DNA of 64,000 bases. Source: Natrinema sp. CBA1119 (GTDB lineage Archaea; Halobacteriota; Halobacteria; Halobacteriales; Natrialbaceae). The position numbers and the translations under genes were made by a program. Positions 45,015 to 60,761 of the stretch are shown one piece after another. Below the pieces are notes generated by a model. It saw nothing but the letters and a program-made list of their open reading frames with translations, was not told the DNA's origin and ran no database searches. The DNA is taken from contig NZ_PDBS01000001.1 of NCBI RefSeq assembly GCF_002572525.1, positions 3,844,001 through 3,908,000 on the forward strand. The letters run 5' to 3'. Every line of letters starts with the position of its first letter. Position 1 is the first letter of the stretch.

Positions 45015-46205
45015 TCAGTCAAGTAGTCCCTCGAAGCGCCGTTCGAGGCTGTCAGCGACGTGTTCCCACGTGTACCCCTCTTCGATCACGTAGGACCGGC
45101 AGGCTCCCCCCGCACTCGTACGTTCCGCCTCTCCCACTCGCGCCCACGAAGCCAGTCGCGCGGCCAGGGCGTCGGCATCGCCCGCGTCGACCAGCAGCGG
45201 CTCCGTGATCGCCGATCGACGCTCCAGATTTCCGAGAATTTCCGGCGTCGCGCCGGCTCGCGTCCCGATCACGGGCGTCCCTGCGGCCAGCGCCTCGAGC
45301 GTCGCGAGCCCGAACCCCTCGAGTTCGAGCGTCGGCAGAACGAACACGTCCGCGCCGGCGTACAGGGACGCCAGTTGCTCCTCCGGAACGTATCCGAGGA
45401 ACGTGACGGCCGAGTCGATACCGAGACGGTCGGCTCGCGCGCACAGTTCGTCGCGCAGCGGGCCGTCGCCCCCGATGTAGAGGTGTGCGTCGTCGCCGTC
45501 CGCGACGACCGACGCGAACGCGTCGAGCAGGGTCTCCAGACCCATGCGCGGCGTGAGACGGCGAACTGTGAGAAACGAGGTTTCGTCCTCGGCGAACGTC
45601 TCCGGGCCGGGGCCGTCGATCGGGGCGAACCGCTCGACGTCGACGCCGCCCGGGACGACCGAACAGGATGGCGCTCCCGGGTGGTGGTCGCGGAAGCGCT
45701 CGCGCATGAACTCGCTCAACACGATGGCGGCGTCGCTGTGGTCGAGCACGCGAGCCTCGATTCGGTGACGAAGCGCGCGGTTGAGCCGGTGCCACGGCGC
45801 CGCCCACCGGCTCGGGGCGACCAGTCTGTCGCGGTACTCGACCGCCCAGAGCCCGTGGATCGTGTACGTTCGGGGGATCCGATTCGAGATTGCCCGGTCG
45901 ACGCCGAACGAACTCAATGCGCCGTGAAAACTGACGACGTCGACGGGGGCGTTCGACTCGATCGACGCCACCGTTCGATCGATTTCCCGCAGCGTCGCCG
46001 GGAGTCGCGGAATCGACGCGTCGTACCGGTATACGTCCATCCCGTCGACCGTCTCTCGCGCATGCGCGTCGCCGCGCAGCCTGGTGACGACCGAGACGTC
46101 GTGTCCCCGTTCGACGAGCTCGCGACCGACTTCGTAGTTATACCGCCCGGAGCCGGTCGCTTCCGGGTCGGGATAGAGGTTGTTCGTCGCGGAGAGGACG
46201 TGCAT
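45015..46205 (-). CDS. GT4-family glycosyltransferase
   Basis: A 396-residue GT-B glycosyltransferase. The N-terminus has G-S-G-R-Y-N-Y-E-V-G-R-E-L-V-E-R-G-H-D-V (about 19-38), the usual acceptor-domain glycine loop. The donor domain has L-T-V-R-R-L-T-P-R-M-G-L-E-T-L, G-G-D-G-P-L-R and L-E-G-F-G-L-A-T-L-E-A-L-A-A-G-T-P-V-I-G, the E-x7-E motif that binds nucleotide sugar. It probably transfers a sugar to a lipid-linked glycan or exopolysaccharide. The ATG at 46205 gives M-H-V-L-S-A-T-N-N. Confidence 0.93.
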   Translation of the reverse strand: MHVLSATNNLYPDPEATGSGRYNYEVGRELVERGHDVSVVTRLRGDAHARETVDGMDVYRYDASIPRLPATLREIDRTVASIESNAPVDVVSFHGALSSFGVDRAISNRIPRTYTIHGLWAVEYRDRLVAPSRWAAPWHRLNRALRHRIEARVLDHSDAAIVLSEFMRERFRDHHPGAPSCSVVPGGVDVERFAPIDGPGPETFAEDETSFLTVRRLTPRMGLETLLDAFASVVADGDDAHLYIGGDGPLRDELCARADRLGIDSAVTFLGYVPEEQLASLYAGADVFVLPTLELEGFGLATLEALAAGTPVIGTRAGATPEILGNLERRSAITEPLLVDAGDADALAARLASWARVGEAERTSAGGACRSYVIEEGYTWEHVADSLERRFEGLLD

Positions 46206-46339
46206 ACGCGGTCTCGATAGCGGCACGAAATCAGTGTTCCGTTCGAGAGGCGCCCGTGCGGTCGTGTTCGGCCGTGCCCCCGACCGTCCCGAACGGATGG
46301 CGAAACACTAATCCTGCGGCTCTGGCGAGATAGTGACAC

Positions 46340-47266
46340 ATGGACACGCGTTCGCGACTGTCCCGTGCACTCCGCACCCCGATCCTGTTTTGCCGACACG
46401 CCAACCGGCTGTATCACCGCCGGTTCGGCCGCCGCGAGTGCAACGAGGACGGCGTGGATCCGTTCGAGGCCGACTGGGACAACCTCTTCGTCCTCGACGC
46501 GTGCAGGTACGACATGTTCGAGCGCCGGGCGGAGCTGCCGGGCCGGCTGGAACGCGCCGAGTCCCGGGCGTCCACGACCGTCGAATTTCTCCGCGCGAAC
46601 GTCGACGGCCGAGACCTCAGCGACACCGTCTACGTGACCGCGAATCCACAGCTCTCCCAGCACCGCGAGTCGATCGATGCGCGGTTCGCGGCCGTCGTCG
46701 ACGTCTGGCGTGCGGACGGGTGGAGCAACGAACACGGCACGGTGCTCCCCGAAACGGTGACCGAGTACGCGCTCCAGGCCGCCGAGGAGTACCCGAACAA
46801 GCGCCTCGTCGTCCACTACATGCAACCCCACTACCCGTTCGTTGGGTCCGACGCTGACTTCGACGGCGGGGACTTCTCCGACCCGGAGGCGACCGAGGAA
46901 AACGTCTGGGTACAGCTCTTACAGGGACAAACCGACGTGGACCGGGACGAAATTTGGGAACTCTACGACGGCAACCTCGACCGGGCGCTTCCCCACGTCG
47001 AAGACGCCATGCGAGAACTCGGCGGCAAGACGATCGTAACAGCCGACCACGGCAACATGGTCGGCGAACGCGCGTTCCCAATCCCGTTTCGAGAGTGGGG
47101 ACACCCTCGCGGCGTGTACACGCCGGAGCTCGTCGACGTGCCGTGGCTGGTATACGAGAGCGGGGCCCGCCGGACGATCCGCGCGGCGACTCCCGATGAT
47201 CGCGACGAATCGCCCGACGACGACGTTGTCGCCGAACGGTTGCGCGATCTCGGATACGCCGAATGA
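46340..47266 (+). CDS. Sulfatase/alkaline phosphatase-fold protein
   Basis: A 308-residue protein of the alkaline phosphatase superfamily. D-N-L-F-V-L-D-A-C-R-Y-D (about 46-57) is the first metal/nucleophile strand, and V-T-A-D-H-G-N-M-V-G-E near 234-244 and F-R-E-W-G-H-P-R-G near 251-259 carry metal ligands. In haloarchaeal surface clusters such proteins are called sulfatases and may add or remove sulfate or phosphate groups on glycans. No signal peptide is evident. It is followed after 19 bases by a glycosyltransferase gene. Confidence 0.88.
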   Translation: MDTRSRLSRALRTPILFCRHANRLYHRRFGRRECNEDGVDPFEADWDNLFVLDACRYDMFERRAELPGRLERAESRASTTVEFLRANVDGRDLSDTVYVTANPQLSQHRESIDARFAAVVDVWRADGWSNEHGTVLPETVTEYALQAAEEYPNKRLVVHYMQPHYPFVGSDADFDGGDFSDPEATEENVWVQLLQGQTDVDRDEIWELYDGNLDRALPHVEDAMRELGGKTIVTADHGNMVGERAFPIPFREWGHPRGVYTPELVDVPWLVYESGARRTIRAATPDDRDESPDDDVVAERLRDLGYAE

Positions 47267-47285
47267 CCACCACGAGGGAGACGGC

Positions 47286-48506
47286 GTGAAACTAGGCTTC
47301 GTCCACCCGAGCTATCCGAAGAGCGAGGGAACGGGCGCGACGCACAGCGCTTCGCGCATCGTGTTCGAGCTGGCCGATCGCGGCCACGACGTGACGGTGT
47401 ACCCCTGGGAGCGACCGCCCGAGGACGCCGCGATCGACGCCGACGTTTCGATTCGCCCGCTCGAGCTATCGGGCTACCCGTACCACTCAGCGTTCCAGCT
47501 CAACGACGCGCTCCGGAAGCGCGTCGCCGAGTTCGACGAGTATGACGTCGTGCACAGCTACGTCATGAACAGTATGCCGGTACTGGGCGAGATCGCCGCG
47601 CGAACGAGTGCGGCAACGGTCGTAACGCTGAACGCCTACGGCGGGATCTGCCCGAAAAACGATCTCCGCTACATGGACCGCGAGCCCTGCACTAGCAATG
47701 GGCTGGCCAAGTGTACGGCCTGCTCGCTCGCGACCAGCGGCAGCCACGACGAGGACGGCCCGCTCTATCGCTCGGCGAGCAGGCTCGGTTACCTGAAGCT
47801 GATTCGAGAGGGCGAACGCATGGTCGACGAGATCGACGCCTACCACGCCCTCTCGCCGCACATCGAGGCCACGTACGCCGACTTCGGGTTTCCGCCCGAG
47901 CGGCTGACCGTGATTCCGAACATCCTCGACGAGCGGTTCAGTCGCCCGCACGAGAGCGACTTCGACGCTCCCTACGACCTGCTGTACGTCGGATCGCTCG
48001 ACGAACACAAGGGTGTCGACCGACTCGTCCCGATCCTGAACCGACTGAACGACCGGGTCTCCGGGGCTGTCCGGCTGACCGTCGTTGGCGATGGTGGCCA
48101 CCGGACAGACATGGAACAACGGGCCGCGGACAGCGCCATTGAGGACCGCGTCACGTTCACCGGGTGGCTGCCGAACGACGACCTCCCGGGTGTGTTTGCG
48201 GCCCACGACTGCTTCGTCTACCCCGGCCGGTGGGACGAGCCGTTCGGCCGCGTGTTCCTCGAGGCGCTCGCGACGGGGACACCGGTCGTCGCCAGCGATG
48301 TCGGCAGCGTCGCGGAGATCGTCGGCGACGGCGGCGTCACCACCGACGGCTCCGTGGACGGGTTCGTCGCCGCGCTGCGTGACCTGTTCGACGGCGAGAA
48401 ACTAGCGACCCGCTCGTCGGCGGCCGGGCGCGAGGTGGCGGCCTACCGTGCCGAGACTGTCGTTCCGCAGTTCGAGGAGCTGTACGAGCGCGTGATCGAA
48501 CGGTGA
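47286..48506 (+). CDS. GT4-family glycosyltransferase
   Basis: A 406-residue GT-B enzyme with GTG start. The acceptor domain begins K-L-G-F-V-H-P-S-Y-P-K-S-E-G-T-G-A-T-H-S-A-S. A cysteine cluster (G-G-I-C-P-K-N-D, E-P-C-T, C-T-A-C-S) near residues 125-152 is unusual but occurs in some GT4 proteins and might bind metal. The donor domain has Y-V-G-S-L-D-E-H-K-G-V-D-R-L and W-D-E-P-F-G-R-V-F-L-E-A-L-A-T-G-T-P-V-V-A-S, the E-x7-E motif. It is in an operon with the sulfatase-fold gene. Confidence 0.93.
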   Translation: MKLGFVHPSYPKSEGTGATHSASRIVFELADRGHDVTVYPWERPPEDAAIDADVSIRPLELSGYPYHSAFQLNDALRKRVAEFDEYDVVHSYVMNSMPVLGEIAARTSAATVVTLNAYGGICPKNDLRYMDREPCTSNGLAKCTACSLATSGSHDEDGPLYRSASRLGYLKLIREGERMVDEIDAYHALSPHIEATYADFGFPPERLTVIPNILDERFSRPHESDFDAPYDLLYVGSLDEHKGVDRLVPILNRLNDRVSGAVRLTVVGDGGHRTDMEQRAADSAIEDRVTFTGWLPNDDLPGVFAAHDCFVYPGRWDEPFGRVFLEALATGTPVVASDVGSVAEIVGDGGVTTDGSVDGFVAALRDLFDGEKLATRSSAAGREVAAYRAETVVPQFEELYERVIER

Positions 48507-48513
48507 AGTCGCC

Positions 48514-50313
48514 TCATCGGCTCTGTGCCGCGTAGAGGTCGGCGTACTCCCCGTCGTTCTCGACGAGTTCGTCGTGGGCCCCGACCTCCGAGATTTCTCC
48601 GTCCTCGAGCGTGTAGATGCGGTCAGCGTTCTGGACCGTGGTCAACCGGTGGGCGACGGTGACGACGAGATACTCCCGGTCCATCGTCTCGATCCCCGCT
48701 TGAACGTCTTGCTCCAGGTTCGAGTCCAGATCGCTCGTCGCCTCGTCCAGCAACAACACGTCCACGTCGTCGAGCAGTGCCCGGGCGATGGCGACGCGCT
48801 GTTTCTGTCCGCCCGAGAGCCGCACGCCGTCGTCTCCGACCTGCGTCTCGTAGCCGTCCGGAAGGTCGTCGAGGAACTCGTCGACCTGGGCGATCTCGCA
48901 GACCCGCTCGACCTCCTCCCAGGAGGCGTCCCTGTCGGCGATCGTCAGGTTGTACTCGAGTGTGTCGTCGAAGATGTAGGGGTCTTGCTCCACGACGGCG
49001 ATGTGGTCGCGCCACTCGTCGATATCCATCTCGCCAATCGAAACGCCGTTCGCCCGGATCTCGCCGTCGGTCGGTTCGTGCATCCGTGCGAGCAGCGAGA
49101 TGACGGTCGACTTCCCCGCCCCCGACTGGCCCACGAAGGCGACGAACTCCCCACGGTCCACCGAGAAGTCGACGGTACGGAGTACCTCGGTATCCTCGTC
49201 GTAGGCGAAGCTCACGTCGTCGAAAGCGACCGATTCGATCGTCCCGGGGACCTGGCGACAAGCGGTGTCGGGCTCGGCGTTGCCAGCGAGATCGCGCGTG
49301 AACTGGCGCGTGCGAACGAGATGCGGAAGGTCCTGCTCGATCCGGTAGAACAGTTCGTTGGCCCGACTCGCCTTGGGCCCCAGCCGGAACATCGCAAAGA
49401 GGAACAGGCCCAGCGAACTGAGCGTCAACTCCACGTACGTAAGCGAGACGTAGATGAGCGCGAACACCGACACTGCGACGGTCAGCTGATAGGCGTTGTC
49501 GATCGCGGCTTCGTTGCGACGGAGCTTCACGCGCGCTCGAGTATACTTGTCGACCGCTTCGACGAAATCACCGTACAGTTCGTCGACGAGGCTGAAGATT
49601 CGGCTCTCCCGCATTCCCTGCGTGCCAGCCTGGGCGGCTTCCTGGCGTTGCTCGTTCGCGTCCGCGACCCGGTTGCCGATGTCGTAGCCCGGTTCGACGA
49701 CGACGCGCAACAGCACCGTCACGCCGCCGAGTACAATGACCGTGAGGATCGTAAGTACCGGCGAAACGGCGAACGCGATGAGTCCGTAGACGATGCCGAG
49801 AAAGGACTGCTCGACGAACAGGACCAGCCGCTCGATCACTTGGCCCGCGTAGAACGTCTGGGTGATAATCGCGTTCAGTACGTCGTCGGATCCCGTTTCG
49901 TCGAGGTACGCGATGTCGGCGTCGAAGGCGTTTCCGAACGCCTCCGTCTGGAGGTCCCTGATGTAGGACATCCGGAGCGTCTCCCGGAACCACGCCACCA
50001 GAAAACTCGCCGTGAACCGGACGATCATGACGGCGGCGACGCCCAGTACCGCTGTCCCGAGCGTGAGCGGCACGTTTACGGTCTGGTAGACTGCCGCGAA
50101 GATCCCGGCAATGCCGCCATCGGTGGGCTGGCCGCCCGACTGGACCAGGTCGATGATCGGGAGGATAAAACTCAGTCCGACCCCTTCGAGCACGGCGGCG
50201 ATGATCCCGAGACCGACAATCGCGCCCGTGAGCTTCGGGTCGTATTCGAGAACGCTGACCAACGCGTCGAGTTTTTCGCGCCGCGAAGCGGGAGGGGCAT
50301 CAGGCTCTGGCAT
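48514..50313 (-). CDS. ABC exporter, lipid-linked glycan flippase type (PglK/MsbA-like)
   Basis: A 599-residue half-transporter: six membrane helices in the first 320 residues, then an ATPase domain with Walker A G-Q-S-G-A-G-K-S-T (about 395-403), signature L-S-G-G-Q-K-Q-R near 499 and Walker B V-L-L-L-D-E-A-T near 519. The tail H-R-L-T-T-V has the switch histidine. In a glycosyltransferase cluster the likely cargo is a lipid-linked oligosaccharide, as for PglK. It is convergent with the GT4 gene. The ATG at 50313 is chosen over the longer frame. Confidence 0.92.
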   Translation of the reverse strand: MPEPDAPPASRREKLDALVSVLEYDPKLTGAIVGLGIIAAVLEGVGLSFILPIIDLVQSGGQPTDGGIAGIFAAVYQTVNVPLTLGTAVLGVAAVMIVRFTASFLVAWFRETLRMSYIRDLQTEAFGNAFDADIAYLDETGSDDVLNAIITQTFYAGQVIERLVLFVEQSFLGIVYGLIAFAVSPVLTILTVIVLGGVTVLLRVVVEPGYDIGNRVADANEQRQEAAQAGTQGMRESRIFSLVDELYGDFVEAVDKYTRARVKLRRNEAAIDNAYQLTVAVSVFALIYVSLTYVELTLSSLGLFLFAMFRLGPKASRANELFYRIEQDLPHLVRTRQFTRDLAGNAEPDTACRQVPGTIESVAFDDVSFAYDEDTEVLRTVDFSVDRGEFVAFVGQSGAGKSTVISLLARMHEPTDGEIRANGVSIGEMDIDEWRDHIAVVEQDPYIFDDTLEYNLTIADRDASWEEVERVCEIAQVDEFLDDLPDGYETQVGDDGVRLSGGQKQRVAIARALLDDVDVLLLDEATSDLDSNLEQDVQAGIETMDREYLVVTVAHRLTTVQNADRIYTLEDGEISEVGAHDELVENDGEYADLYAAQSR

Positions 50314-50523
50314 ACGAAAGACTGTATCTACATCGCTACTCCCGGCTGGGGCGTATAAATCCATTCATCTCCATACCGGCGCTGTCACGGCGTGAGGGGC
50401 GTGGTTTAGGTGCGCCAAATGATATGTGAAAGGCTTTTACCGAGGACCGAAGATTCACGAGTAGTTCAAGATCCGAACCATGGACACGGCAACAGAGCGA
50501 CCGTCCGTCTGGGGGAACTCCCC

Positions 50524-51645
50524 GTGAACGTCATCGACGAGAACGGCCGACTGTTCGGTCGCGTCAACGTCTACGACGCGCTGGTCGTCTTACTCGTCTT
50601 GGGGGCGATCGTCGCGGGCGTCGTTTTCCTCGATCCGCTCGGTGGGGGCGACAGCGCCGGCGGAAACGGCGGCGAGTCCGCCACGCGCTATGCGACGGTC
50701 GACCTCGGCAATCGGTCGCCGGCGGTCGCCGAGCGAATCACCGACGGTACGACGTCAGCGCCCGACCTCACGATTACGGACACGTACGTGGGCCCCGCGG
50801 ACGGCGAGAACCTCTCCGTCGTCGTTCGGGTTCGCATCGACGGCACGCTCACCGACGGTGAGGGGAGCGACGGACGGTCCATCACGTTCGCAGATACCCG
50901 AGTACAGCGCGGTAGCGACCTCGACATCGAGACGGCGGAGTACGACGTGGCTGGTGAGGTGCTGGAACTGAGCACCGAGGGGGAGACGCTGAACACGAGT
51001 ACGCTCCCTGTCCTCATCAGAGCGGACCTGGGACCGTCGACGGCTGCCCTCGTCGACCGCGGCGACACCTACCGGATCGACGGCCGGACGATGGCGACCG
51101 TCGAGCAAGCGGTCGTCAACCCGAGGACGAACCGGACGAACCGGACCGACCTCGTGGGACTCTCCCTGCGCACGATCCGATACGACGGCGCCACCTACTT
51201 CGGGGCCGACCGAGTGCTTGTCGACCGGCCGCTCGAGTTCCGGACGGACCGATACGCGTTCTCCGGTACGGTGGCGCGATGGGGGAACGCCTCGCTGCCC
51301 GGTGAGCCGGTCGAACGGACCGTCACCGTAAGAGCCGCGAACGTCCCGCCTCACGTCGCCGACCGGATCGAAGCGGGGATCGTCGAGCGCCGGGGGAACG
51401 CGACGATTGCACGCGTCATGGACGTACGGACCGAACCGGCGTCGGTCGTTCTCACGAGTGCGGACGGGAACATCTACGAACGCGAACACCCCCGGAATGA
51501 AGACGTGTTCCTCACCGTCGAGTTGCGAGCGCGATCCACCGGCGACGATCTTCGGTTCCGGACGCGTCGAGTGCGGGCAGGGACCACCCTGTCCCTGGAC
51601 TTCGACACTGTCTCGGTCGTGGGAGAGGTGTTAGAAGTTCAATAG
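50524..51645 (+). CDS. DUF4330 domain membrane-anchored protein
   Basis: A 373-residue protein. The opening I-D-E-N-G-R-L-F-G-R-V-N-V-Y-D-A-L-V-V-L-L-V-L-G (about 4-27) followed by one membrane helix is the DUF4330 hallmark. The rest (about 40-373) is an acidic, beta-rich extracellular region made of three similar units with D-V-A-G-E-V-L-E-L / F-S-G-T-V-A / S-V-V-G-E-V-L-E-V strands. DUF4330 proteins are found in polysaccharide clusters of bacteria and archaea, perhaps as export partners. GTG start. Confidence 0.85.
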   Translation: MNVIDENGRLFGRVNVYDALVVLLVLGAIVAGVVFLDPLGGGDSAGGNGGESATRYATVDLGNRSPAVAERITDGTTSAPDLTITDTYVGPADGENLSVVVRVRIDGTLTDGEGSDGRSITFADTRVQRGSDLDIETAEYDVAGEVLELSTEGETLNTSTLPVLIRADLGPSTAALVDRGDTYRIDGRTMATVEQAVVNPRTNRTNRTDLVGLSLRTIRYDGATYFGADRVLVDRPLEFRTDRYAFSGTVARWGNASLPGEPVERTVTVRAANVPPHVADRIEAGIVERRGNATIARVMDVRTEPASVVLTSADGNIYEREHPRNEDVFLTVELRARSTGDDLRFRTRRVRAGTTLSLDFDTVSVVGEVLEVQ

Positions 51646-51715: not shown

Positions 51716-51735
51716 TTTTAAGGCTTGCCTAAAAA
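51716..51735 (+). promoter_or_regulatory. Iron-box-like palindrome before the siderophore-like operon
   Basis: TTTTAAGGCTTGCCTAAAAA is an imperfect palindrome around TTG, the form expected for DtxR/IdeR/Idr-type iron-responsive repressors. It overlaps a TATA-like T/A-rich stretch (about 51710-51722) ahead of the operon. A second palindrome of the same type lies at the ferric importer promoter (59753). Confidence 0.65.
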
Positions 51736-51757
51736 TGTGCGGGCAAGAGATCGAGAG

Positions 51758-51832
51758 ATGAACGCTCACACGATGAACCGACCGTTCAGAGCCGTCGTCC
51801 GGCGGGTGGACCGACGGGGTGAAGCAGTATGA
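51758..51832 (+). CDS. Possible leader peptide upstream of the siderophore-like operon
   Basis: A 24-codon frame (M-N-A-H-T-M-N-R-P-F-R-A-V-V-R-R) whose stop TGA overlaps the start of the acyltransferase gene in ATGA. Its position just after the iron box and the 4-base overlap suggest translational coupling. It is too short to judge from composition, and may be untranslated leader. Confidence 0.35.
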   Translation: MNAHTMNRPFRAVVRRVDRRGEAV

Positions 51833-52416
51833 CCGGACCGCGGGAGACGGTGCGGTCGGGGTACAGTTATCTCACAACCGATCCCGACCTCGAGAAGTCC
51901 ATCGGTTTCCGGGAGGTGGATCCGGACCGCGACCTCGGTCGCCTTCACGCGTGGCTCAACAGCGATCACGTCCTCCCCTACTGGGAGCAGGACGATCCGC
52001 TGTTGCAGGTACGGGAGACGATCAACGAACGGGCGCGAAACGAGGACCAGACGCTCTACATCGGCTATCTGGACCACACGCCAATGAGCTACTGGGAATC
52101 GTACTGGGCCGCCCGAGATCGGATCGGCGACTACTACGACGCGGACCAGACCGATCAGGGGATCCACTTACTCATCGGCCCCCCCGAGTACCTCGGCGAG
52201 GGGTACGGGGCCCCGCTGGTGCGGGCGATGGTTGGCTTCCAGTTCCAGCACCCCGAGACGGAGCGCATCGTCACCGAACCGGACATCCGGAATGAGCGGG
52301 CCATCCGCGTGTTCGAGAAATGCGGCTTCGAGGCCGCACACGAGGTCGATCTGCCGGACAAAACTGGACTGCTCATGTTCTGTGACCGGGACCGCTTCGA
52401 GGAGGGGGGCGCATGA
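51829..52416 (+). CDS. GNAT acyltransferase of siderophore type (IucB/RhbD/AlcB-like)
   Basis: A 195-residue acetyl/acyl-CoA-dependent N-acyltransferase. The hallmark is I-G-F-R-E-V-D-P near residue 25, W-L-N-S-D-H-V-L-P-Y-W near 43-53, then Y-I-G-Y-L-D-H-T-P-M-S-Y-W-E-S-Y near 75-90, H-L-L-I-G-P-P-E-Y-L-G-E-G-Y-G near 112-126 (CoA loop), and E-P-D-I-R-N-E-R-A-I-R-V-F-E near 150-163. This arrangement is that of hydroxamate-siderophore acyltransferases, which acylate the hydroxylamine made by the next enzyme. The stop overlaps the start of the monooxygenase in ATGA. Confidence 0.88.
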   Translation: MTGPRETVRSGYSYLTTDPDLEKSIGFREVDPDRDLGRLHAWLNSDHVLPYWEQDDPLLQVRETINERARNEDQTLYIGYLDHTPMSYWESYWAARDRIGDYYDADQTDQGIHLLIGPPEYLGEGYGAPLVRAMVGFQFQHPETERIVTEPDIRNERAIRVFEKCGFEAAHEVDLPDKTGLLMFCDRDRFEEGGA

Positions 52417-53780
52417 CCGACCACGTCCACGACCTCCTCGGCATCGGCGTCGGCCCGTTCAACCTCGGACTCGCGGCACTGATCGACGACGCAGCCGCCG
52501 ACCTCGACGTCGCCTTCCTCGAGCAGAAGCCGGCGTTCAACTGGCACGAGGGAATGCTCATCGAGGGGACGACACTCGAGGTCCCGTTCCTCGCGGACCT
52601 AGTTACGATGGTCGACCCGACGAACCCCTACAGCTACCTCAACTACCTCCGCGAGCAGAACCGCCTCTACGAGTTCTACTTCTACGAGGAGTTTTTCATC
52701 CCGCGCCGCGAGTACAACGACTACTGCCGGTGGGTGGCCGACCAGCTCCCGTCCCTGCGCTTCGACCAGCGGGTCACCGACGTGCGCGAGGACGACGGGG
52801 TGTTTGTCGTCGAGACCGTCGATTCGGTGACGGGCGACCGGGCGAGCTACGCCGCCGAGGACGTAGTCATGGGGATCGGTACCCAACGTCATATCCCCGA
52901 TCAGTTCGAGGACTTCCTCGGCCCCGACGTGTTCCACTCGGCGTCGTACCTTCACAACCGTGACCGGTGTCTCGACGCCGACTCCATCACGATCGTCGGC
53001 TCCGGACAGAGCGCGGCGGAGGTGTTTCGCGACCTCGTCGAGCGCCAGCCCGACCGAGCCTACAGCATCGACTGGATCACCCGGTCGCGTGGCTTCTTCC
53101 AGATGGCCGACGCCAAACTGGGCCACATGATCTACACGCCGGACTACATCGACTACTTCTACGATCTGGATCAGGAGACAAAAGACCAGTTGCTCGGGTC
53201 ACAGGACCTCCTCTACAAGGGGATCGACGGGGAGACGAGCGCGAAGATCTACGACGCGCTCTACCGGAACTCCATCGGTGACGCCGAGCCCGACGTCGGA
53301 CTGCTCGCGGCGACCGAGATCACCGATATCGGGCCGGCCCGGTCGCCCGGCGAGGGCTACCAGTTGATCTGCGAGCAGTGGCAGGAAGGCGACCGGTTCC
53401 TTCACGAGAGCGAGGTGGTGATCCTGGCAACCGGCTACACCCGGACCGATCCGCCCTTCCTCGCACCGCTGGAAGACCGGATCCGGCGCGACGACGAGGG
53501 GCGACTCACAATCACTCGCGACTTCCGTCTGGAGACCGACGGGCTCGCGGGCGAGATCTTCGTCCAGAACGCGGAGTTGCACACCCACGGCCTCAACGCG
53601 CCCGATCTGGGTCTGGGACCGTACCGAAACGCCACCATCGTCAACGCGGTCGCCGACGAGGAGGTCTACGAACCCCGTAGCGCCGACACGTTCCAGCGCT
53701 TCTCCGTCGACGATTTCGTGGCCGAACGCGGGGCACACCGGCTCGAGTCGGCCGCGCCGAAGCCGAGCGACGGGGCTTGA
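52413..53780 (+). CDS. L-lysine N6-monooxygenase (IucD/SidA/PvdA family)
   Basis: A 455-residue flavin N-hydroxylating monooxygenase. The FAD motif G-I-G-V-G-P-F-N-L-G lies at 10-19, the NADPH motif I-V-G-S-G-Q-S-A-A-E-V at about 194-204, and A-T-G-Y at about 340-343. E-G-M-L-I-E-G-T-T-L-E-V-P-F-L-A-D-L-V (about 46-64) is characteristic of IucD-like enzymes, which hydroxylate the terminal amine of lysine or a diamine, the first step of hydroxamate siderophore synthesis. No decarboxylase gene is nearby, so free lysine is a reasonable substrate. One base separates its stop from the next gene. Confidence 0.94.
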   Translation: MTDHVHDLLGIGVGPFNLGLAALIDDAAADLDVAFLEQKPAFNWHEGMLIEGTTLEVPFLADLVTMVDPTNPYSYLNYLREQNRLYEFYFYEEFFIPRREYNDYCRWVADQLPSLRFDQRVTDVREDDGVFVVETVDSVTGDRASYAAEDVVMGIGTQRHIPDQFEDFLGPDVFHSASYLHNRDRCLDADSITIVGSGQSAAEVFRDLVERQPDRAYSIDWITRSRGFFQMADAKLGHMIYTPDYIDYFYDLDQETKDQLLGSQDLLYKGIDGETSAKIYDALYRNSIGDAEPDVGLLAATEITDIGPARSPGEGYQLICEQWQEGDRFLHESEVVILATGYTRTDPPFLAPLEDRIRRDDEGRLTITRDFRLETDGLAGEIFVQNAELHTHGLNAPDLGLGPYRNATIVNAVADEEVYEPRSADTFQRFSVDDFVAERGAHRLESAAPKPSDGA

Positions 53781-53781
53781 G

Positions 53782-55611
53782 ATGGTCGGTCTCTCCGGTG
53801 TATTCGGCGGGGACGCTCACAGCGTCGAGGTGGAGACGGTCCCCGAGACCATCGCCGGTGGCGAGGTGGCCGACACCTACCGCGAACACGGGGTCGTCAT
53901 TCGCGCGGCGTTCCACGAGGGGACGGCAACCGACCAGCCCGCCGAGACCGACGACGGGTCGCTCGTGTGGATCTGGGGCGAAGTGTATAGCGTCACCGAC
54001 GAGGTCGGCGAGCGGCGCTCGGTCGACCCTAACGAATCGGCACAGGTCTGTGCCCGGCAGTATAGCGCCCACGGTCTCGACTTCGTGTCCCGTCTCGACG
54101 GCGAGTTCACCGGTTGCGTCTACGAACCGGCCGCCGACACCGTTTCGTTTTTCACCGATCGGCTCGGTGCGCGGCCGCTGTACTACGCCCGCGGGGATGA
54201 CGGCCTCGCGTTCTCGACGGCCGTCCAGACGGTGCCCGTACTGCCGGGGTTCGAGCCGGCGTTCGACGAGCGATTCCTCGCGGAGTATCTCTACTGTCGG
54301 CGCACGTTCGGCACCAAGACGCCGATCACGGGACTCGAGCAACTGCCGCCGGCGACGATCCTGACCTGCTATATCGAGAGCGGCGACACCGATCGCCGTC
54401 GCTACTGGGAGCCCCGATACCGGCCCCAAGACCGACCGTTCTCGTACTTCGTGCGGGAACTCACCGACCGATTCGAACGGGCGGTCCACGACCGGACGCG
54501 AGACGACCGCGACCACGGCCTCCTGCTGAGTGGCGGGAGCGACTCTCGAGCGGTGCTGGCGGCTGCCGACGAGCCACTCACGGCCTTTCACCTGGGCGAC
54601 GGCTGGAATCGCGAGGCACGGATCGCCCAACGGGCGGCCGACGCCGCCGACTCCCGATTCGAACTGCTGAATCGCGGGCCAAACTACCACGCCACGCTAC
54701 TGGAGCGGGCCGGACCGATTCAGGAGTTCGTCGGGCCATTTCATACGGGTCACGCACTCGGGTTCGCCGATGAAATCGACGCCGAGGTCGACACGCTACT
54801 GACGGGTCTATACAGCGACGATCTCTTCGGATCCTGGAGCATCTCGCAGGCGACGCTTCAGCTCCCTTTCGACATCCAGTTCTGGTTCCCGTTCGAGCGC
54901 CTACCGTCGACCATCGACGACTTCGTATGCGAGCAGGTGACCGCTGGGCCCACGCGCCGGCCCGACTTTCTCGATGCGGCACCGCTCGAGGAGATCCTGC
55001 GCGAGAACATCCGGTTCGAGAACGGCGAGGTGGAGTTCCACGGCGTCGGCTACGAGTCGGTCGAACAGCTCAGCCTCAATTCGACGTTGTATCCGATCAC
55101 GAACGGGATCGGATTCGACCTGTTCAGCGCAGTACAGATCGCGCCAACGCGGAACCCGTTCCTCGACCGCCGACTGGTGGATCTGGCCCTCTCGATGCCC
55201 CTGAAGCACCGATTGCGCCGCGACCCGCTGCACCGAGCAGTGGACCGACTCGACGGCTCGCTGGCCGATATTCCGCACGCTTCGTCGCGCGTCCCGTTGA
55301 AACATCCCAAGGCGGCGCACGTGGTCGGCAATCGCGCGATGAACCTGTTCGACAAACTCGACTGGACCGGTTCGTATCGGACGCAGGGACCGTGGCAGGA
55401 CAAAAACGAAGTGATCAGAACCCACGACTTTGTGGGTCGGGCGCTGGAGCGACACGAGGAGACCGGTCGACGGCTACCCGGCCTCGACTGGGATGCGGTG
55501 CGTGACACGTATCGACGTCACCGCGCGGGCGAGACGAACGCCGCCGAGGAACTATACCGGCTGGTCACCGTCCTCGAAATGCCGCTTACGGGACGAATTG
55601 TCGGCGATTGA
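53782..55611 (+). CDS. Asparagine synthetase-like ligase without the glutaminase cysteine
   Basis: A 609-residue AsnB-family protein. The N-terminal domain (about 1-200) has the shape of a class II glutamine amidotransferase (D-G-E-F-T-G near 106-111, T-D-R-L-G-A-R-P-L-Y-Y near 125-135), but residue 2 is valine (M-V-G-L-S-G) instead of the catalytic cysteine, so ammonia release from glutamine is not expected. The synthetase domain has the PP-loop L-L-L-S-G-G-S-D-S (about 247-255) and T-G-L-Y-S-D-D-L-F-G near 341-350. The same arrangement is known in beta-lactam synthetase, which joins an amine and carboxylate within its substrate. In an operon with N-hydroxylase and acyltransferase it is the probable amide-bond-forming step. 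Confidence 0.88.
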   Translation: MVGLSGVFGGDAHSVEVETVPETIAGGEVADTYREHGVVIRAAFHEGTATDQPAETDDGSLVWIWGEVYSVTDEVGERRSVDPNESAQVCARQYSAHGLDFVSRLDGEFTGCVYEPAADTVSFFTDRLGARPLYYARGDDGLAFSTAVQTVPVLPGFEPAFDERFLAEYLYCRRTFGTKTPITGLEQLPPATILTCYIESGDTDRRRYWEPRYRPQDRPFSYFVRELTDRFERAVHDRTRDDRDHGLLLSGGSDSRAVLAAADEPLTAFHLGDGWNREARIAQRAADAADSRFELLNRGPNYHATLLERAGPIQEFVGPFHTGHALGFADEIDAEVDTLLTGLYSDDLFGSWSISQATLQLPFDIQFWFPFERLPSTIDDFVCEQVTAGPTRRPDFLDAAPLEEILRENIRFENGEVEFHGVGYESVEQLSLNSTLYPITNGIGFDLFSAVQIAPTRNPFLDRRLVDLALSMPLKHRLRRDPLHRAVDRLDGSLADIPHASSRVPLKHPKAAHVVGNRAMNLFDKLDWTGSYRTQGPWQDKNEVIRTHDFVGRALERHEETGRRLPGLDWDAVRDTYRRHRAGETNAAEELYRLVTVLEMPLTGRIVGD

Positions 55612-55702: not shown

Positions 55703-56866
55703 TCAGGCCGACGGGAACCACACCAGCGGGTGGTTCGCGACGAGTTCGACGCGAACCGACTCGCCGATGTCGAACACCTCCGTGTGACCGTGAAGACACT
55801 GTATGGTATCGCCGCTGTCGGTCTCGACGCGGTAGATGAACGACGGGCCCTGGTACTGGCGTCGCGTGATCGTGCCGTCGGCCTCATCGGTCGTCGTCGG
55901 GCTCACGCGGAGGTCGTCGGGGCGAACCAGCACGTCGACCGTCGCCTCGTCGGACAGCGCCCCCCAGTCCGATCGATCGACGCCGACGAGCGCGTTGGTG
56001 TCGAGCTGGCCGACATCGGTCACGAGCACGCCGTCCTCGACGCTCGCCGAGAGGAACCCGGCACGACCGAGGAAGGAGGCGACGAACCGCGAAGCCGGAC
56101 GCTCGAACACTTTTGCCGGCCGCCCGACCTGTTGGAGTTGGCCATCGTGCATCACGCCGACACGGTCGGCGACCGACAGCGCCTCTTCTTGATCGTGGGT
56201 GACCCAGATCGTCGTGACGCCCGTCTCGTCGATGATCCGTCGGATCTCCTCGCGCATGGAGACGCGAAGGCTCACGTCGAGGTTCGAAAGCGGTTCGTCC
56301 AGCAGGAGAACGTCGGGCTCAGGTGCCAGCGAGCGCGCGAGCGCGATGCGCTGTTTTTGTCCGCCCGAGAGCTCGCTCGGGCGATCGTCGCCGTGGTCCG
56401 ACAGGTCGACGAGGTCGAGCAATTGCTCGACGCGGGCCTGACGCTCGCTCTCGGACCACTCTGAGAGCCCAAATCCAACGTTTTCGGCCGCCGTCAGGTG
56501 CGGAAAGAGCGCGAAATCCTGAAACACCAGCCCGATACCGCGCTCTTCGGGCGGTACGAACGTCCCGTCGACGTCAGCGAGGACGCGGTCGCCCAGTTTG
56601 ATGGTTCCATCGTTTGGACGTTCGAGCCCGCCGATCAACCGTAGTGTCGTGGTTTTCCCGCAGCCTGACGGACCCAATAGCGTCAGCACTTCGCCGTCGC
56701 CGACGGAAACGGAAAGGTCCTCGACCGCCGTCTCGGTCGCGTACGACCGAGCGATGTTGTCCAGTTCGAGTACTGTCGATTGTCGAGGATCGTCGTCGGT
56801 GTCGGCGGTCGATATCGCCGGTTCAGACGATGCGAGCGATTCGCGGTTGTAGTTGTGTTCTGACAT
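55703..56866 (-). CDS. Ferric iron ABC importer, ATP-binding subunit (FbpC-like)
   Basis: A 387-residue ATPase of the FbpC/PotA type. Walker A G-P-S-G-C-G-K-T-T lies at about 65-73, the signature L-S-G-G-Q-K-Q-R near 165-172, Walker B L-L-L-D-E-P-L-S-N-L-D near 186-196. The C-terminal third is a TOBE regulatory domain (V-L-V-R-P-D-D-L-R-V-S). It powers the permease encoded 3 bases upstream, and the three genes form one operon. The membership in the Fbp class is deduced from the permease and binding protein. Confidence 0.92.
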   Translation of the reverse strand: MSEHNYNRESLASSEPAISTADTDDDPRQSTVLELDNIARSYATETAVEDLSVSVGDGEVLTLLGPSGCGKTTTLRLIGGLERPNDGTIKLGDRVLADVDGTFVPPEERGIGLVFQDFALFPHLTAAENVGFGLSEWSESERQARVEQLLDLVDLSDHGDDRPSELSGGQKQRIALARSLAPEPDVLLLDEPLSNLDVSLRVSMREEIRRIIDETGVTTIWVTHDQEEALSVADRVGVMHDGQLQQVGRPAKVFERPASRFVASFLGRAGFLSASVEDGVLVTDVGQLDTNALVGVDRSDWGALSDEATVDVLVRPDDLRVSPTTTDEADGTITRRQYQGPSFIYRVETDSGDTIQCLHGHTEVFDIGESVRVELVANHPLVWFPSA

Positions 56867-56869
56867 GAA

Positions 56870-58522
56870 TTACTCCTCCTGTGAGAGGATGACGACCATC
56901 GAAAGACCCGAGACGACGATCAACACCAGCGCGGGGACGGCTGCGAACCCGTAGTAGCCGGATTCGCGGACGCTCCAGATGTACGTGACGAGCGTCTCGA
57001 AGCCTGTTGGGTGAAGCACCAGTGTTGCGGGCAACTCTTTCATCGTGGTGAGAAAGACCAGCGCCGCGCCGCCGATCACGCCGGGTGCGATCAGCGGGAG
57101 CGTGATCCGGCGGAACGCGCCCGCGGGCGTCCGACCGAGCGTTCGCGCAGCTTCGGTCAGACTCCGGTCGACGCGCAGCACCGACGACCGCGTCGACCCG
57201 ACGGCCTGCGGGAGAAAGCGGATGACATACGCAAAGATCAACAGTGGGAGCGTCTGGTACAGCGTTGGGGTGACGTCGACGCCGAAAAGCAAGAGGTCGC
57301 CGACGGACGATTCGTAATAGACGGCGAAGAACACGAGCGCGAGACCGAGGACGATTCCGGGCATCGCGTACCCCACGTAGGTCATCCGGTCGAACAGCTC
57401 AGACAGCCTGGACCGATGTCTCGCGGCAAGGTAGGCAACCGGAACCGCGGCGGCCGCACAGACGACTGCCGCCGCCAGTGAGACGGACACCGAGTTAATC
57501 GCGAACTGCCACTGGAAGCCGACGCCCTGTCGGGTGGCCTGGCTCGGACTCCGGACCAGCCAGTGGGTCAGGACGGCCAGTGGCACGACGAGACAGAGGA
57601 AGACGATACTCGTACAGAATGCGAGCGCGGGGGCTTTCCACGCGCCCAGTGAGACCGTCGTGTCGCTCCCTGAACTCGCGCCTGTGCCGACGTAGGCCCC
57701 GCGACTCGAGTCACCGATTCGCGACTCGATCGAGAGGATCACTGCGGTGATCGCCAGCAACTGCAAGGAGAGCATGGCGGCTGTCTCGCGACCGAACGCG
57801 TTGTACTCGACGAAGATGACGCGGGTGAATACGTCCAATCGCATAAGCGACGGAGTACCGAAATCCGAGAGCGTGTACAGCGCGACCAGGAGAGACCCCG
57901 ATGCGATCCCGGGTAGGAGTTGTCGAAGCGTTACGCGACTGAATGCTCGCCAGCGTGTCGTCCCGAGCGTCCGTGCGGCCTCGACGAGTTGCTGGTCGAA
58001 AGACAGCAGCGACGCCCGAGTCGTGATGAACACGTACGGATAGGTGTACAGCGTGAGCACGAGCGTCGTGCCCCAGAACCCGTAGACCGGTGGAATCGAC
58101 TCGATGCCGAGGGGCGCGAGAGCGTTTGCGAGTTGTCCGCCGGGGCCGAACGCGGAGATGAAGGTAAACGCCCCCAGATAACTCGGGATGACCAGCGGCA
58201 GGGCGACGGCGATGGTCCAGAACCGCCGGAACGGGAGATCCGTGCGGACGGTGAGAAAGGCGAGCGGAACGCCAATGCAGATCGATGCGCCGGTGACGGC
58301 GGCGACGAGGCCGAGGCTCGTCAACAGGATCTCGACGGTCATCGGGCGCGCGACGATCGACAGCGCGTAGTCGGTGTCGACCTGGAGCACGCGCATGACG
58401 ATCCACACGATCGGTGAGAGTACCACTGCGGCGATCGCACCGCTCAGGAGCGTCAGGCCGGTCGGATAGCCGTCCGTCTCCCCTTGGTCAAACCGTGACA
58501 CTAGTCTATCGCCCACGGACAT
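56870..58522 (-). CDS. Ferric iron ABC importer, permease (FbpB-like)
   Basis: A 550-residue inner-membrane permease made of two fused six-helix halves, as in FbpB/SfuB. Each half carries the EAA-type loop that docks on the ATPase: V-E-A-A-R-T-L-G-T-T near 180-189 in the first and L-T-E-A-A-R-T-L-G-R-T-P near 455-466 in the second. It moves Fe3+ released by the binding protein. The start is 1 base after the binding-protein stop. Confidence 0.92.
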   Translation of the reverse strand: MSVGDRLVSRFDQGETDGYPTGLTLLSGAIAAVVLSPIVWIVMRVLQVDTDYALSIVARPMTVEILLTSLGLVAAVTGASICIGVPLAFLTVRTDLPFRRFWTIAVALPLVIPSYLGAFTFISAFGPGGQLANALAPLGIESIPPVYGFWGTTLVLTLYTYPYVFITTRASLLSFDQQLVEAARTLGTTRWRAFSRVTLRQLLPGIASGSLLVALYTLSDFGTPSLMRLDVFTRVIFVEYNAFGRETAAMLSLQLLAITAVILSIESRIGDSSRGAYVGTGASSGSDTTVSLGAWKAPALAFCTSIVFLCLVVPLAVLTHWLVRSPSQATRQGVGFQWQFAINSVSVSLAAAVVCAAAAVPVAYLAARHRSRLSELFDRMTYVGYAMPGIVLGLALVFFAVYYESSVGDLLLFGVDVTPTLYQTLPLLIFAYVIRFLPQAVGSTRSSVLRVDRSLTEAARTLGRTPAGAFRRITLPLIAPGVIGGAALVFLTTMKELPATLVLHPTGFETLVTYIWSVRESGYYGFAAVPALVLIVVSGLSMVVILSQEE

Positions 58523-58523
58523 G

Positions 58524-59741
58524 TTAGAGTGCGCCTACCTCGCGCATGAGTTGCAGCGTCGGCTCGAGGTCCGCGAGCTGGGAGAGATCGAAATCCGGCG
58601 GGTTCAATTCGTCGATAGTCGGGAGGTCTCCGATCGGCGGGACGCTGGGGAGCAGCGGATATTCGTACCCCCGCGTCGCCAGGAACTCCTGGGCCTCGAT
58701 GCTGAGCAGGTGATGGATGAAATCCACCGCCAGCGTCTCGTTTGCCGTGTTCTTGATGATCTCGGTTCCCGAGCAGTTCACGAGCGCGCCCGCGTCGCCC
58801 TGCGTGAACGCGAGATCGATCGGGGCGTTGGGACGCTCTTCGAACACGAGTCGCGAGTAGTAGTGATTTGAGAACCCAGCGCTCAACTCGCCGCTCGCGA
58901 CCCTGTTGGCGACGACCAACTCGTTGTCGTACGTGTTGACGCCCTGTTCTTGCATCCCGTTGAGCCACTGGCGCGCTTCGCTTTCCCCGTCGATGAGTCT
59001 CATCGCGGTGACGAACGCTTGGAACGCGCCGTAAGTCGGAGCCCAGCCCATCGCGTTGTTAAATCGTGAATCCTGCGCGAACGTCAAGATGTCGTTTGGA
59101 ATCTCCGACTCCGAGAACTCCTCCGTGTTGTAGGGAATGCTTCGGGCTCGACCCATGACCCCGACCCACTGATCCGTCGGGTGGTACGTGTCCGGAATTT
59201 CGGAGACGAGGTGGTCCGGGAGCGACACGGTCGCGTCGTTTTCGGCGACGATGCCGATCGATCCGGCGTCGATTGCCCAGAAGATGTCCGCCGGACTCTG
59301 GCCGGCGTTGACCTCCTCGCTGATGGTGTTCGCAAGCTGGGATGAGGGCGCCTCTCGGATGTTCACGATGAAGTCCTGGTACGTGTTCTGGACCCGCTTC
59401 ATCAGGTTCGCGTACAGTCCGCCCTCGCCGCCGCCGAGGTAGACCGTTAGTTCGCCCCGCAGATCCGGAAGATCGAGCATCGACCGGCCGGTGTACTCCG
59501 AGGGGCGGTCGTCGATCAGCGGACCGGACCCCCGCCACTCTTCGAGGGAAAAGAGTTCGTCGACCGTGTACGTCTTGGGATCGGGTATCGATCCCTCTCG
59601 CTCGTACGTCGACTCGTCGCTGTTGCTGGCACACCCCACGAGCGACACGGCTCCGGTCGCCGTTCCGGTGAGTTTCAGGAACTGTCGCCGGCCCCGTCCG
59701 GTCGCGTCACTCCGGTGGTCGCCGCCTTCGTATTCGGCCAT
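58524..59741 (-). CDS. Ferric iron ABC importer, substrate-binding protein
   Basis: A 405-residue extracellular solute-binding protein. The N-terminus has a Tat signal (G-R-R-Q-F-L-K near 17-23) and a lipobox-like S-L-V-G-C (Cys38). The mature part has L-T-V-Y-L-G-G-G-E-G-G-L-Y near 99-111 and later N-H-Y-Y-S-R-L-V near 298-305 and G-D-A-G-A-L-V-N near 319-326, consistent with the FbpA/AfuA Fe3+-binding class; the double tyrosine could bind iron. A DtxR-like palindrome overlaps its promoter. Confidence 0.88.
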   Translation of the reverse strand: MAEYEGGDHRSDATGRGRRQFLKLTGTATGAVSLVGCASNSDESTYEREGSIPDPKTYTVDELFSLEEWRGSGPLIDDRPSEYTGRSMLDLPDLRGELTVYLGGGEGGLYANLMKRVQNTYQDFIVNIREAPSSQLANTISEEVNAGQSPADIFWAIDAGSIGIVAENDATVSLPDHLVSEIPDTYHPTDQWVGVMGRARSIPYNTEEFSESEIPNDILTFAQDSRFNNAMGWAPTYGAFQAFVTAMRLIDGESEARQWLNGMQEQGVNTYDNELVVANRVASGELSAGFSNHYYSRLVFEERPNAPIDLAFTQGDAGALVNCSGTEIIKNTANETLAVDFIHHLLSIEAQEFLATRGYEYPLLPSVPPIGDLPTIDELNPPDFDLSQLADLEPTLQLMREVGAL

Positions 59742-59752
59742 ATACGCCGTAT

Positions 59753-59770
59753 TTTTTGGCTACCCTAAAA
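59753..59770 (-). promoter_or_regulatory. Iron-box-like palindrome at the ferric importer promoter
   Basis: TTTTTGGCTACCCTAAAA, an imperfect palindrome, lies 12-29 bases upstream of the ATG at 59741. On the coding strand the TTTTAGG end serves as the TATA-like element of a leaderless promoter, so a repressor bound here would block transcription factor binding. It resembles the palindrome at 51716. Confidence 0.65.
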
Positions 59771-59873: not shown

Positions 59874-60761
59874 GTGAAAACGAGCATCATCATCCCCGTG
59901 TACAACGATCCAGAGGGGCTAGGAGTGACCGTCGACTCGCTCCTGAACCAGACTGCAACCGACTACGAAGTCGTCATCGCGGACAACGGATCGACCGACG
60001 AGACAGCGGCCGTCGGCCGGGAGTTCGCGCAGTCGGACCGTGTTCGCCACGTCGTCGAAGAGGACGTTCAAAGCTCTTACGCGGCTCGAAACGCCGGTAT
60101 CGAAGTTGCACGTGGGGACATCCTCGGGTTCGTCGACGCGGACATGTGGGTCGAGACCGACTACGTCGAGTCGATCACCGACAAGATGACGGCCGACGAC
60201 CGGGACTACATGGGGTGTAACGTCGAACTTGTGACCGACGACGGCACGATAGGCCGCTACAGATCTACCACCGGCTTCGACGTCGAAAAATACGTCCGAG
60301 AGAAGCGGTTCGCACCGACGTGCTGTGTCGTGACCCGCAAGCGGGTGTTCGACGCCGTCGGGCTCTTCGACAGCCGATTGCGTTCAAACGGGGACCTCGA
60401 GTTCGGCCGCCGCGTCCACGAGGCCGGCTTCGACCTCGTGTTCGAGCCCGACATCACGCTCTATCATCCCGCTCGGTCGACGGTCGGTGAACTTATCGCA
60501 CAAAGTACTCGGATCGGCCGGGGTCGTGGAGAGATCCGGGCGTATCACGGCGATCGGTTCAGTGTGCAAACAACCCTGAATCCGCGACACTATCTCCCGG
60601 TAAATCCCATTGCGTTCCACGAGAGAGTGTCCGGAGCGTACCGCTCACTCACTGAATTTCTCCTGTGGTATCTGCTCGCGTGTATCCAGAAGTGGTCGAT
60701 CACGGGGGGCTATCTGCGACAGACCGTCTCTTCGCCGATGGACGCACCGGATCCTCGTTGA
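59874..60761 (+). CDS. GT2-family glycosyltransferase
   Basis: A 295-residue GT-A enzyme. K-T-S-I-I-I-P-V-Y-N-D opens the fold, V-I-A-D-N-G-S-T-D-E-T is near 34-44, A-A-R-N-A-G near 70-75, and the DXD motif F-V-D-A-D-M-W near 86-92. The C-terminal region has G-D-L-E-F-G-R-R-V near 170 and a hydrophobic segment near 263-278 that may anchor it to the membrane. It belongs with the polysaccharide genes. The GTG at 59874 is in frame with the fold; the ATG 11 bases before is in another frame. Confidence 0.92.
   Translation: MKTSIIIPVYNDPEGLGVTVDSLLNQTATDYEVVIADNGSTDETAAVGREFAQSDRVRHVVEEDVQSSYAARNAGIEVARGDILGFVDADMWVETDYVESITDKMTADDRDYMGCNVELVTDDGTIGRYRSTTGFDVEKYVREKRFAPTCCVVTRKRVFDAVGLFDSRLRSNGDLEFGRRVHEAGFDLVFEPDITLYHPARSTVGELIAQSTRIGRGRGEIRAYHGDRFSVQTTLNPRHYLPVNPIAFHERVSGAYRSLTEFLLWYLLACIQKWSITGGYLRQTVSSPMDAPDPR

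Follow-up and report, generated by a model that had tools for sequence, protein, structure and literature searches.

Hydroxamate siderophores are known as free molecules, built by nonribosomal peptide synthetases (NRPSs) or by NRPS-independent siderophore (NIS) synthetases. What becomes of a hydroxamate in an organism that has the enzymes to form one and neither kind of synthetase? The question is raised by a stretch of 64,000 nucleotides from the haloarchaeon Natrinema sp. CBA1119 (positions 3,844,001 to 3,908,000 of contig NZ_PDBS01000001.1; the whole stretch is called the window below), in which the genes of an acyltransferase, a flavin N-monooxygenase (NMO) and a ligase related to asparagine synthetase B (AsnB) form one operon. 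An iron function for the cluster around this trio is strongly supported by its sequence features. With somewhat more confidence than doubt, we propose that the locus is an iron-starvation system, which would make a hydroxamate-bearing lipid-linked glycan and import the Fe(III) collected by it.

The acyltransferase-monooxygenase-ligase trio

An earlier note, made from the window alone, had described three tightly packed genes. These are real, since open reading frame (ORF) coordinates and Pfam families agree over positions 51829-55611:

51829..52416, + strand: GNAT N-acyltransferase of the hydroxamate-forming type (195 aa; PF13523, E=6.6e-52)
52413..53780, + strand: flavin N-monooxygenase with a diamine-type pocket (455 aa; PF13434, E=1.6e-113)
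53782..55611, + strand: AsnB-like adenylating amide ligase without the glutaminase Cys2 (609 aa; PF00733, E=4.8e-17; PF13537, E=1e-9)

The GNAT and NMO genes overlap by 4 bp (ATGA) and a gap of 1 bp separates NMO from the ligase gene. The PDB relatives of the GNAT protein include MbtK and DfoC.

Firstly, we looked for the enzymes that would normally complete a hydroxamate siderophore. The note had remarked that IucA/IucC genes were missing, and a PF04183 profile search extends this to the whole genome (5.06 Mb, 99.6% complete), in which no match was found, while the controls of E. coli and Haloferax volcanii were detected. The same genome gave no match to the NRPS condensation domain (PF00668) and contains no second full-length NMO. 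Hence neither of the findings elsewhere in the genome that the note had said would speak against its pathway, IucA/IucC or NRPS genes, was made. IucA/IucC is likewise absent from six of the eight genomes in which the trio was found, and present at other loci in the remaining two (G087 and G161).

Secondly, we established how the trio is conserved. Among 391 genomes of Halobacteria, orthologs of the AsnB-like ligase (56-78% identity) occur in eight, namely that of Natrinema and G031, G087, G161, G195, G097, G222 and G381. In each, the ligase gene lies directly downstream of a full-length NMO gene, so that the gene order which the note had suggested seeking in other archaea is recovered in 8 of 391 genomes; the coupled PF13434 and PF13523 genes are present at all eight loci. 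The only copies not adjoining NMO are 60-63% identical paralogs in two genomes that also carry an adjoining copy. This adjacency is not due to chance. Nearly all other full-length NMOs in the 391 genomes adjoin IucA/IucC matches, as judged by comparing coordinates by eye; neither neighbour is among the matches listed for the NMOs of G299:C7 and G326:C1:826 kb and for two on G301:C7. When 84,980 species were scanned with strict peptide patterns, which could miss distant homologs, the ligase turned up only in haloarchaea, its carriers being Halosimplex pelagicum, Saliphagus infecundisoli, Halorubrum saccharovorum, Halarchaeum nitratireducens, Halarchaeum rubridurum and Halostagnicola sp. A56. 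Survey and scan combined, with G097, G381 and G222 common to both, give ten cluster genomes from several haloarchaeal families. The ligase copy of Halostagnicola sp. A56 (L115 9879-11817) keeps its iron box and has in-frame stop codons, and no other cluster gene lies within the 21.8 kb around it; the copy may be what is left of a decaying gene, or the assembly may be in error. The two paralogs are located 38 kb from the trio in G087 (L067 7102-8928) and 6 kb from it in G031 (L068 6140-7963), and both have an iron box of their own, some 100-120 bp upstream; they could possibly serve a second acceptor site.

Thirdly, we examined the ligase itself. Val2, in place of the glutaminase Cys2, and the SGGSDS adenylation loop are invariant in ten sequences, orthologs and paralogs taken together. 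The segment SGEGSDEVFGG of E. coli AsnB aligns with TGLYSDDLFGS, so that TGLY replaces SGEG and its Glu is lost. With neither Cys2 nor this Glu, the protein is, as far as its motifs tell, without the features of a strict asparagine synthetase B: it should adenylate its substrate and be unable to use glutamine, and would therefore need another amine. Beta-lactam synthetase and other non-asparagine ligases of the AsnB fold family likewise keep the adenylation loop and have lost the glutaminase Cys; the partner genes, the clade and the probable acceptor are different here, and matches to solved relatives reach only about 22-40 bits. An AlphaFold model built from six sequences had a mean pLDDT of 43.6 and was discarded. 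The idea that relatives of the ligase are generally sugar-linked was not supported, the 36-42% paralogs standing in mixed contexts. Many members of a broad haloarchaeal AsnB-like clade (L093 8266-12847, L089, L100, L091, L097, L103) begin with MVG rather than MCG, and that clade adjoins phosphodiesterase, FemAB/GNAT or ATP-grasp genes.

Finally, the note had called the monooxygenase a lysine N6-monooxygenase, which its pocket does not bear out. Among PDB entries it comes closest to SsDesB, DfoA and FbsI (best matches 6xbb, 5o8p and 7us3). In SidA, Lys107 is essential and binds the carboxylate of the amino acid (PMC7347517), and SsDesB is without the SidA residues that hold this carboxylate (PMC8009421). 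With Sinorhizobium RhbE and PDB sequences as yardsticks, all eight aligned cluster NMOs have Ala61 at the position of SidA Lys107 and His238 at that of SidA Asn293, where a nonpolar residue marks diamine enzymes. The two positions are still Lys and Asn in MbtG and are Ala and Leu in RhbE and in haloarchaeal NMOs from IucA/IucC loci; SsDesB has Leu at the Asn293 position. The cluster NMOs group together (support 100/100), and the NMOs of IucA/IucC loci are their nearest relatives. Because the Lys107 position is Ala in all eight, the substrate is likely a diamine, and N-hydroxylysine would probably be the wrong product. The name histamine N-monooxygenase (TIGR04439) was rejected, the match scoring 432 bits where the cutoff is 700. 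A third haloarchaeal type of NMO, sister to the cluster clade, is found in G301 (L118, contig C7, 6247-7602 and 14324-15673) and G326 (L117, contig C1, 8477-9829), in neighbourhoods that hold no IucA/IucC, GNAT or AsnB gene. The two copies in G301 flank carbamoyltransferase, AMP-binding, aminotransferase, GT4 and aldehyde dehydrogenase genes and perhaps lead to a novel N-hydroxylated product.

Iron boxes and a ferric-ion importer

A comparison of promoters brought out the palindrome TTTAGGYNNRCCTAAA, an iron box of the DtxR type. With at most one mismatch it occurs three times in the window, none being expected from shuffled sequences; exact copies number 11 in the 5.06 Mb genome, and the reversed control none.

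51718..51733, + strand: iron box TTAAGGCTTGCCTAAA before the GNAT-NMO-AsnB operon (pattern search and matrix)
59754..59769, + strand: iron box with one mismatch in the divergent promoter of fbpA and a GT2 gene (pattern search and matrix)
50405..50420, - strand: weak candidate iron box with one mismatch between an ABC transporter gene and the DUF4330 gene (below the matrix threshold; not recovered by the matrix)

Of the exact sites in the genome, one belongs to the trio operon and another to the priming transferase, which is not linked to it. Next to the remaining ones are a gene for a DtxR-family repressor (PF01325/PF02742), importer genes of the FecCD and Peripla_BP_2 families and a small number of genes from other families. 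An operator is thus common to a DtxR-family gene and to iron-uptake genes, as in a DtxR-type regulon, and we infer that the DtxR-family repressor binds the TTTAGGYNNRCCTAAA boxes. A weight matrix trained solely on sites outside the cluster found boxes before GNAT and before fbpA in ten of ten clusters each, and before the priming transferase in all eight genomes in which that gene was located, unlinked copies included (60 kb away in Natrinema, 260 kb in G161). All these boxes score between 12 and 32 bits. A 24-aa ORF lies between the iron box and GNAT (window 51758-51832), its stop overlapping the GNAT start (ATGA); short frames with the same ending precede GNAT in G161, G381 and G222, other loci appearing similar by eye, and this ORF could be a leader peptide or chance.

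The genes that converge on the ligase gene encode, by their families, an importer:

55703..56866, - strand: FbpC-like ATPase of an Fe(III) ABC importer (PF00005 and TOBE_2; kept in 8/8 loci)
56870..58522, - strand: FbpB-like permease of the Fe(III) ABC importer, two domains (PF00528 over two stretches; 8/8 loci)
58524..59741, - strand: FbpA-like Fe(III)-binding lipoprotein (PDB 7w3w, Fbp/HitA family, E=1.2e-50)

By its PDB matches the binding protein is of the FbpA type and not of the ferric-siderophore type, and in all eight genomes it carries the NHYY motif, with the Tyr-Tyr iron ligands, and a Tat/lipobox signal. A protein of this type fits a supply of Fe3+ by itself, not as part of a siderophore complex. 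The FbpABC/HitABC ferric-ion importers share with it the FbpA-like protein with the Tyr-Tyr motif, the ATPase and the fused permease; the importer of the cluster differs from them in having an iron-boxed promoter region in common with glycan genes.

Glycan-assembly genes around the trio

The unit to which the trio belongs is far larger than the earlier note supposed: the trio is its core, and the note had overlooked the iron boxes, the importer and the following genes.

59874..60761, + strand: GT2 glycosyltransferase, divergent from fbpA (PF00535, E=6.4e-31; synteny)
50410..51645, + strand: DUF4330 protein with one predicted transmembrane segment (PF14221; 6/8 loci; hydropathy); its true start is probably further downstream
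48514..50364, - strand: MsbA-like ABC transporter (PF00005/PF00664; MsbA_lipidA E=4.5e-95, below cutoff; 8/8 loci), likely a glycan flippase or exporter
47196..48506, + strand: GT4 glycosyltransferase b (PF00534; 8/8 loci)
46340..47266, + strand: sulfatase/alkaline-phosphatase-like protein (PF00884 only, E=0.0022, below cutoff; 8/8 loci)
45015..46226, - strand: GT4 glycosyltransferase a (PF00534; 8/8 genomes, including the split group of G161)
43570..44817, + strand: polytopic PMT_2/Wzy-like membrane protein (sub-threshold PMT_2 match, about 10 hydrophobic segments; 8/8 genomes)

All eight loci contain the FbpABC-type importer, the MsbA-like transporter, GT4b and the sulfatase-like protein, and most have the rest of a set of 15 families. 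In Natrinema the priming transferase and a third GT4 (c) lie together outside the window, 60 kb upstream; in G161 the priming transferase, GT4c, the Wzy-like gene and GT4a are together 260 kb from the trio. A set for lipid-linked glycans is hence at hand: a priming glycosyl-phosphotransferase (PF02397), three GT4s, a GT2 and an ABC transporter of the flippase type. The polytopic protein, with its sub-threshold PMT_2 match and about 10 hydrophobic segments, is a candidate for the role of Wzy polymerase or ligase. When the Natrinema priming transferase was used as query, the eight best genomes of the 242 with a match were exactly the eight trio genomes. In G195 and G097, GT2 directly follows AsnB and overlaps its 3' end by 4 bp. 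The 16 IucA/IucC loci examined contain no such glycan genes, bar one weak sulfatase-like match.

The sulfatase-like protein was dropped as a marker of the locus, its orthologs being too widespread, and glycan loci of G209, G253 and G073, which have a close sulfatase-like protein, were rejected as relatives, their matches being scattered, mostly low-scoring and without a trio. Nucleotide-sugar dehydrogenases, potential suppliers of uronic acid, are present in the Natrinema genome, as in most genomes. GlmS-like and GlmU-like genes (UDP-GlcNAc supply) adjoin the right end of the cluster (window 60784-63761).

A proposed hydroxamate-bearing glycan and its rivals

These results are compatible with the following scheme. 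NMO would N-hydroxylate a diamine and GNAT acylate the hydroxylamine, reactions for which both families are established, to give an N-acyl-N-hydroxy-diamine. Such a compound has one free amine and no carboxylate, and therefore could only cap a carboxylate from another source. The ligase, by the chemistry of its family and motifs, would adenylate that carboxylate, most likely that of a uronic-acid sugar, and attack by the free amine would form an amide, leaving the hydroxamate as a side group of the glycan. A sugar carboxylate would be the most economical acceptor, because glycan assembly is the partner pathway that comes under iron control and is inherited with the trio: in ten genomes the trio is found with both the importer and the glycan genes. 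The priming transferase, the GT4s and GT2 would assemble the lipid-borne glycan, which the Wzy-like protein may polymerise and the ABC transporter would move across the membrane, as their families suggest. Surface hydroxamates would bind Fe3+ and hand it to the FbpA-like lipoprotein for import by FbpBC, and the DtxR-family repressor, acting on TTTAGGYNNRCCTAAA, would turn the set on at low iron. We regard the linkage of the hydroxamate to a glycan as slightly favoured, and give an even chance to the fuller proposal that the glycan is itself the siderophore, the AsnB-like ligase installing hydroxamates on a lipid-linked surface glycan under DtxR-type control and FbpABC importing Fe3+.

Several observations weigh against this scheme. 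The distant relatives of the ligase stand in mixed, not clearly glycan, contexts, and no uronic-acid gene lies within the locus. GT2 and DUF4330 are absent from some loci, and among the boxes there are weak ones, such as those of 12-16 bits that precede GNAT in G161 and in Halosimplex (L110). In the priming-transferase ranking the eighth genome, at 459 bits, leads the ninth, at 458, by only 1.5 bits. On the side of the substrate, no diamine-forming decarboxylase was identified in the Natrinema genome, the sole PF00282 match being partial and weak, and with His238 the pocket could accommodate lysine.

The chief competing explanation is a small, soluble hydroxamate siderophore: the ligase, replacing IucA/IucC, would join the N-acyl-N-hydroxy-diamine to a dicarboxylate such as citrate, and the glycan genes would belong to a separate response (a biofilm matrix, for example) under a common repressor. 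The GNAT-NMO core is common to IucA/IucC loci, whose NMOs are the nearest relatives, and the second iron-boxed AsnB paralog of two genomes could mimic the IucA/IucC pair. However, most genomes have a single AsnB, the binding protein in the cluster is not of the ferric-siderophore type, and GT2 in the AsnB operon, the glycan genes that accompany the trio in ten genomes and the iron box on their unlinked copies are all left unexplained, so that we consider this rival unlikely, if still one to be reckoned with. That the glycosyltransferases add sugars to a small hydroxamate, which the ABC transporter would export as a soluble glycosylated siderophore, agrees with their conservation and that of the exporter-type ABC protein alongside the trio, but a priming transferase of the polyprenyl-phosphate type (PF02397) and a PMT_2/Wzy-like protein are expected for lipid-linked glycans instead, and we find this improbable. 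Least credible is the core idea of the earlier note, that the substrate is lysine and the ligase dimerises or cyclises N6-acyl-N6-hydroxylysine: the lack of an identified decarboxylase, a His238 that could contact the carboxylate in place of the Leu of diamine enzymes and the weak activity of SsDesB itself on lysine (PMC8009421) are in its favour, but it leaves the glycan genes unexplained, and the essential carboxylate-binding Lys (SidA Lys107; PMC7347517) is replaced by Ala in the eight cluster NMOs that were aligned, just as it is in RhbE and the diamine enzymes.

What is supported of the earlier proposal is a metallophore-type pathway with no IucA/IucC or NRPS and with the AsnB-like ligase as the sole candidate amide-forming enzyme, its iron function being now backed by the DtxR-type box and the Fe(III) importer; the small-molecule products are not supported. 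For the dimer, ring or citrate conjugate named there we found no positive evidence, and the glycan genes point to a glycan acceptor.

The proposed hydroxamate-bearing glycan system has partial counterparts among known systems. The haloarchaeal NIS clusters, such as dat-bdb-iucABDC of Haloferax volcanii (proposed schizokinen), have overlapping genes and a GNAT beside a related NMO, one annotated locus having the order dat-bdb-iucA-GNAT-NMO-iucC-MFS. The H. volcanii operon is iron-regulated by experiment (PMC7407949), and the iron box TTTAGGYNNRCCTAAA is found in 15 of 16 related IucA/IucC loci. The cluster described here has none of IucA, IucC, dat, bdb and MFS; in their place it has the AsnB-like ligase, the glycan genes and FbpABC. 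Desferrioxamine and related diamine pathways (SsDesB, DfoA, FbsI, RhbE) share the diamine-type NMO pocket and the hydroxamate-forming acyltransferase. Ligation in these pathways is done by NIS synthetases or by other known enzymes, whereas here the sole candidate is AsnB-like. Bacterial polysaccharides exist in which amino compounds are amide-linked to uronic acids, an amide between amine and sugar carboxylate like that proposed; what would differ here is the hydroxamate on the amine, and the locus is under iron regulation.

Literature searches on a role of AsnB in siderophores of haloarchaea, on polysaccharides bearing hydroxamates, on amide ligases acting on uronic acids and on DUF4330 brought up no pertinent paper, most subscription journals lying outside the search. 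Each of the protein families is known; the literature so covered has no description of how they are combined and regulated here. The locus would be a third assembly route for hydroxamate siderophores, beside NIS and NRPS. We know of no earlier glycan-built siderophore; should the product be confirmed, this would be the first, and a proven hydroxamate glycan would raise the system to a new class. The ligase suggests that some AsnB-like proteins without Cys2 attach amines other than ammonia. If true, the proposal could explain how some haloarchaea that have no IucA/IucC obtain iron in brines, in which a secreted molecule is readily lost.

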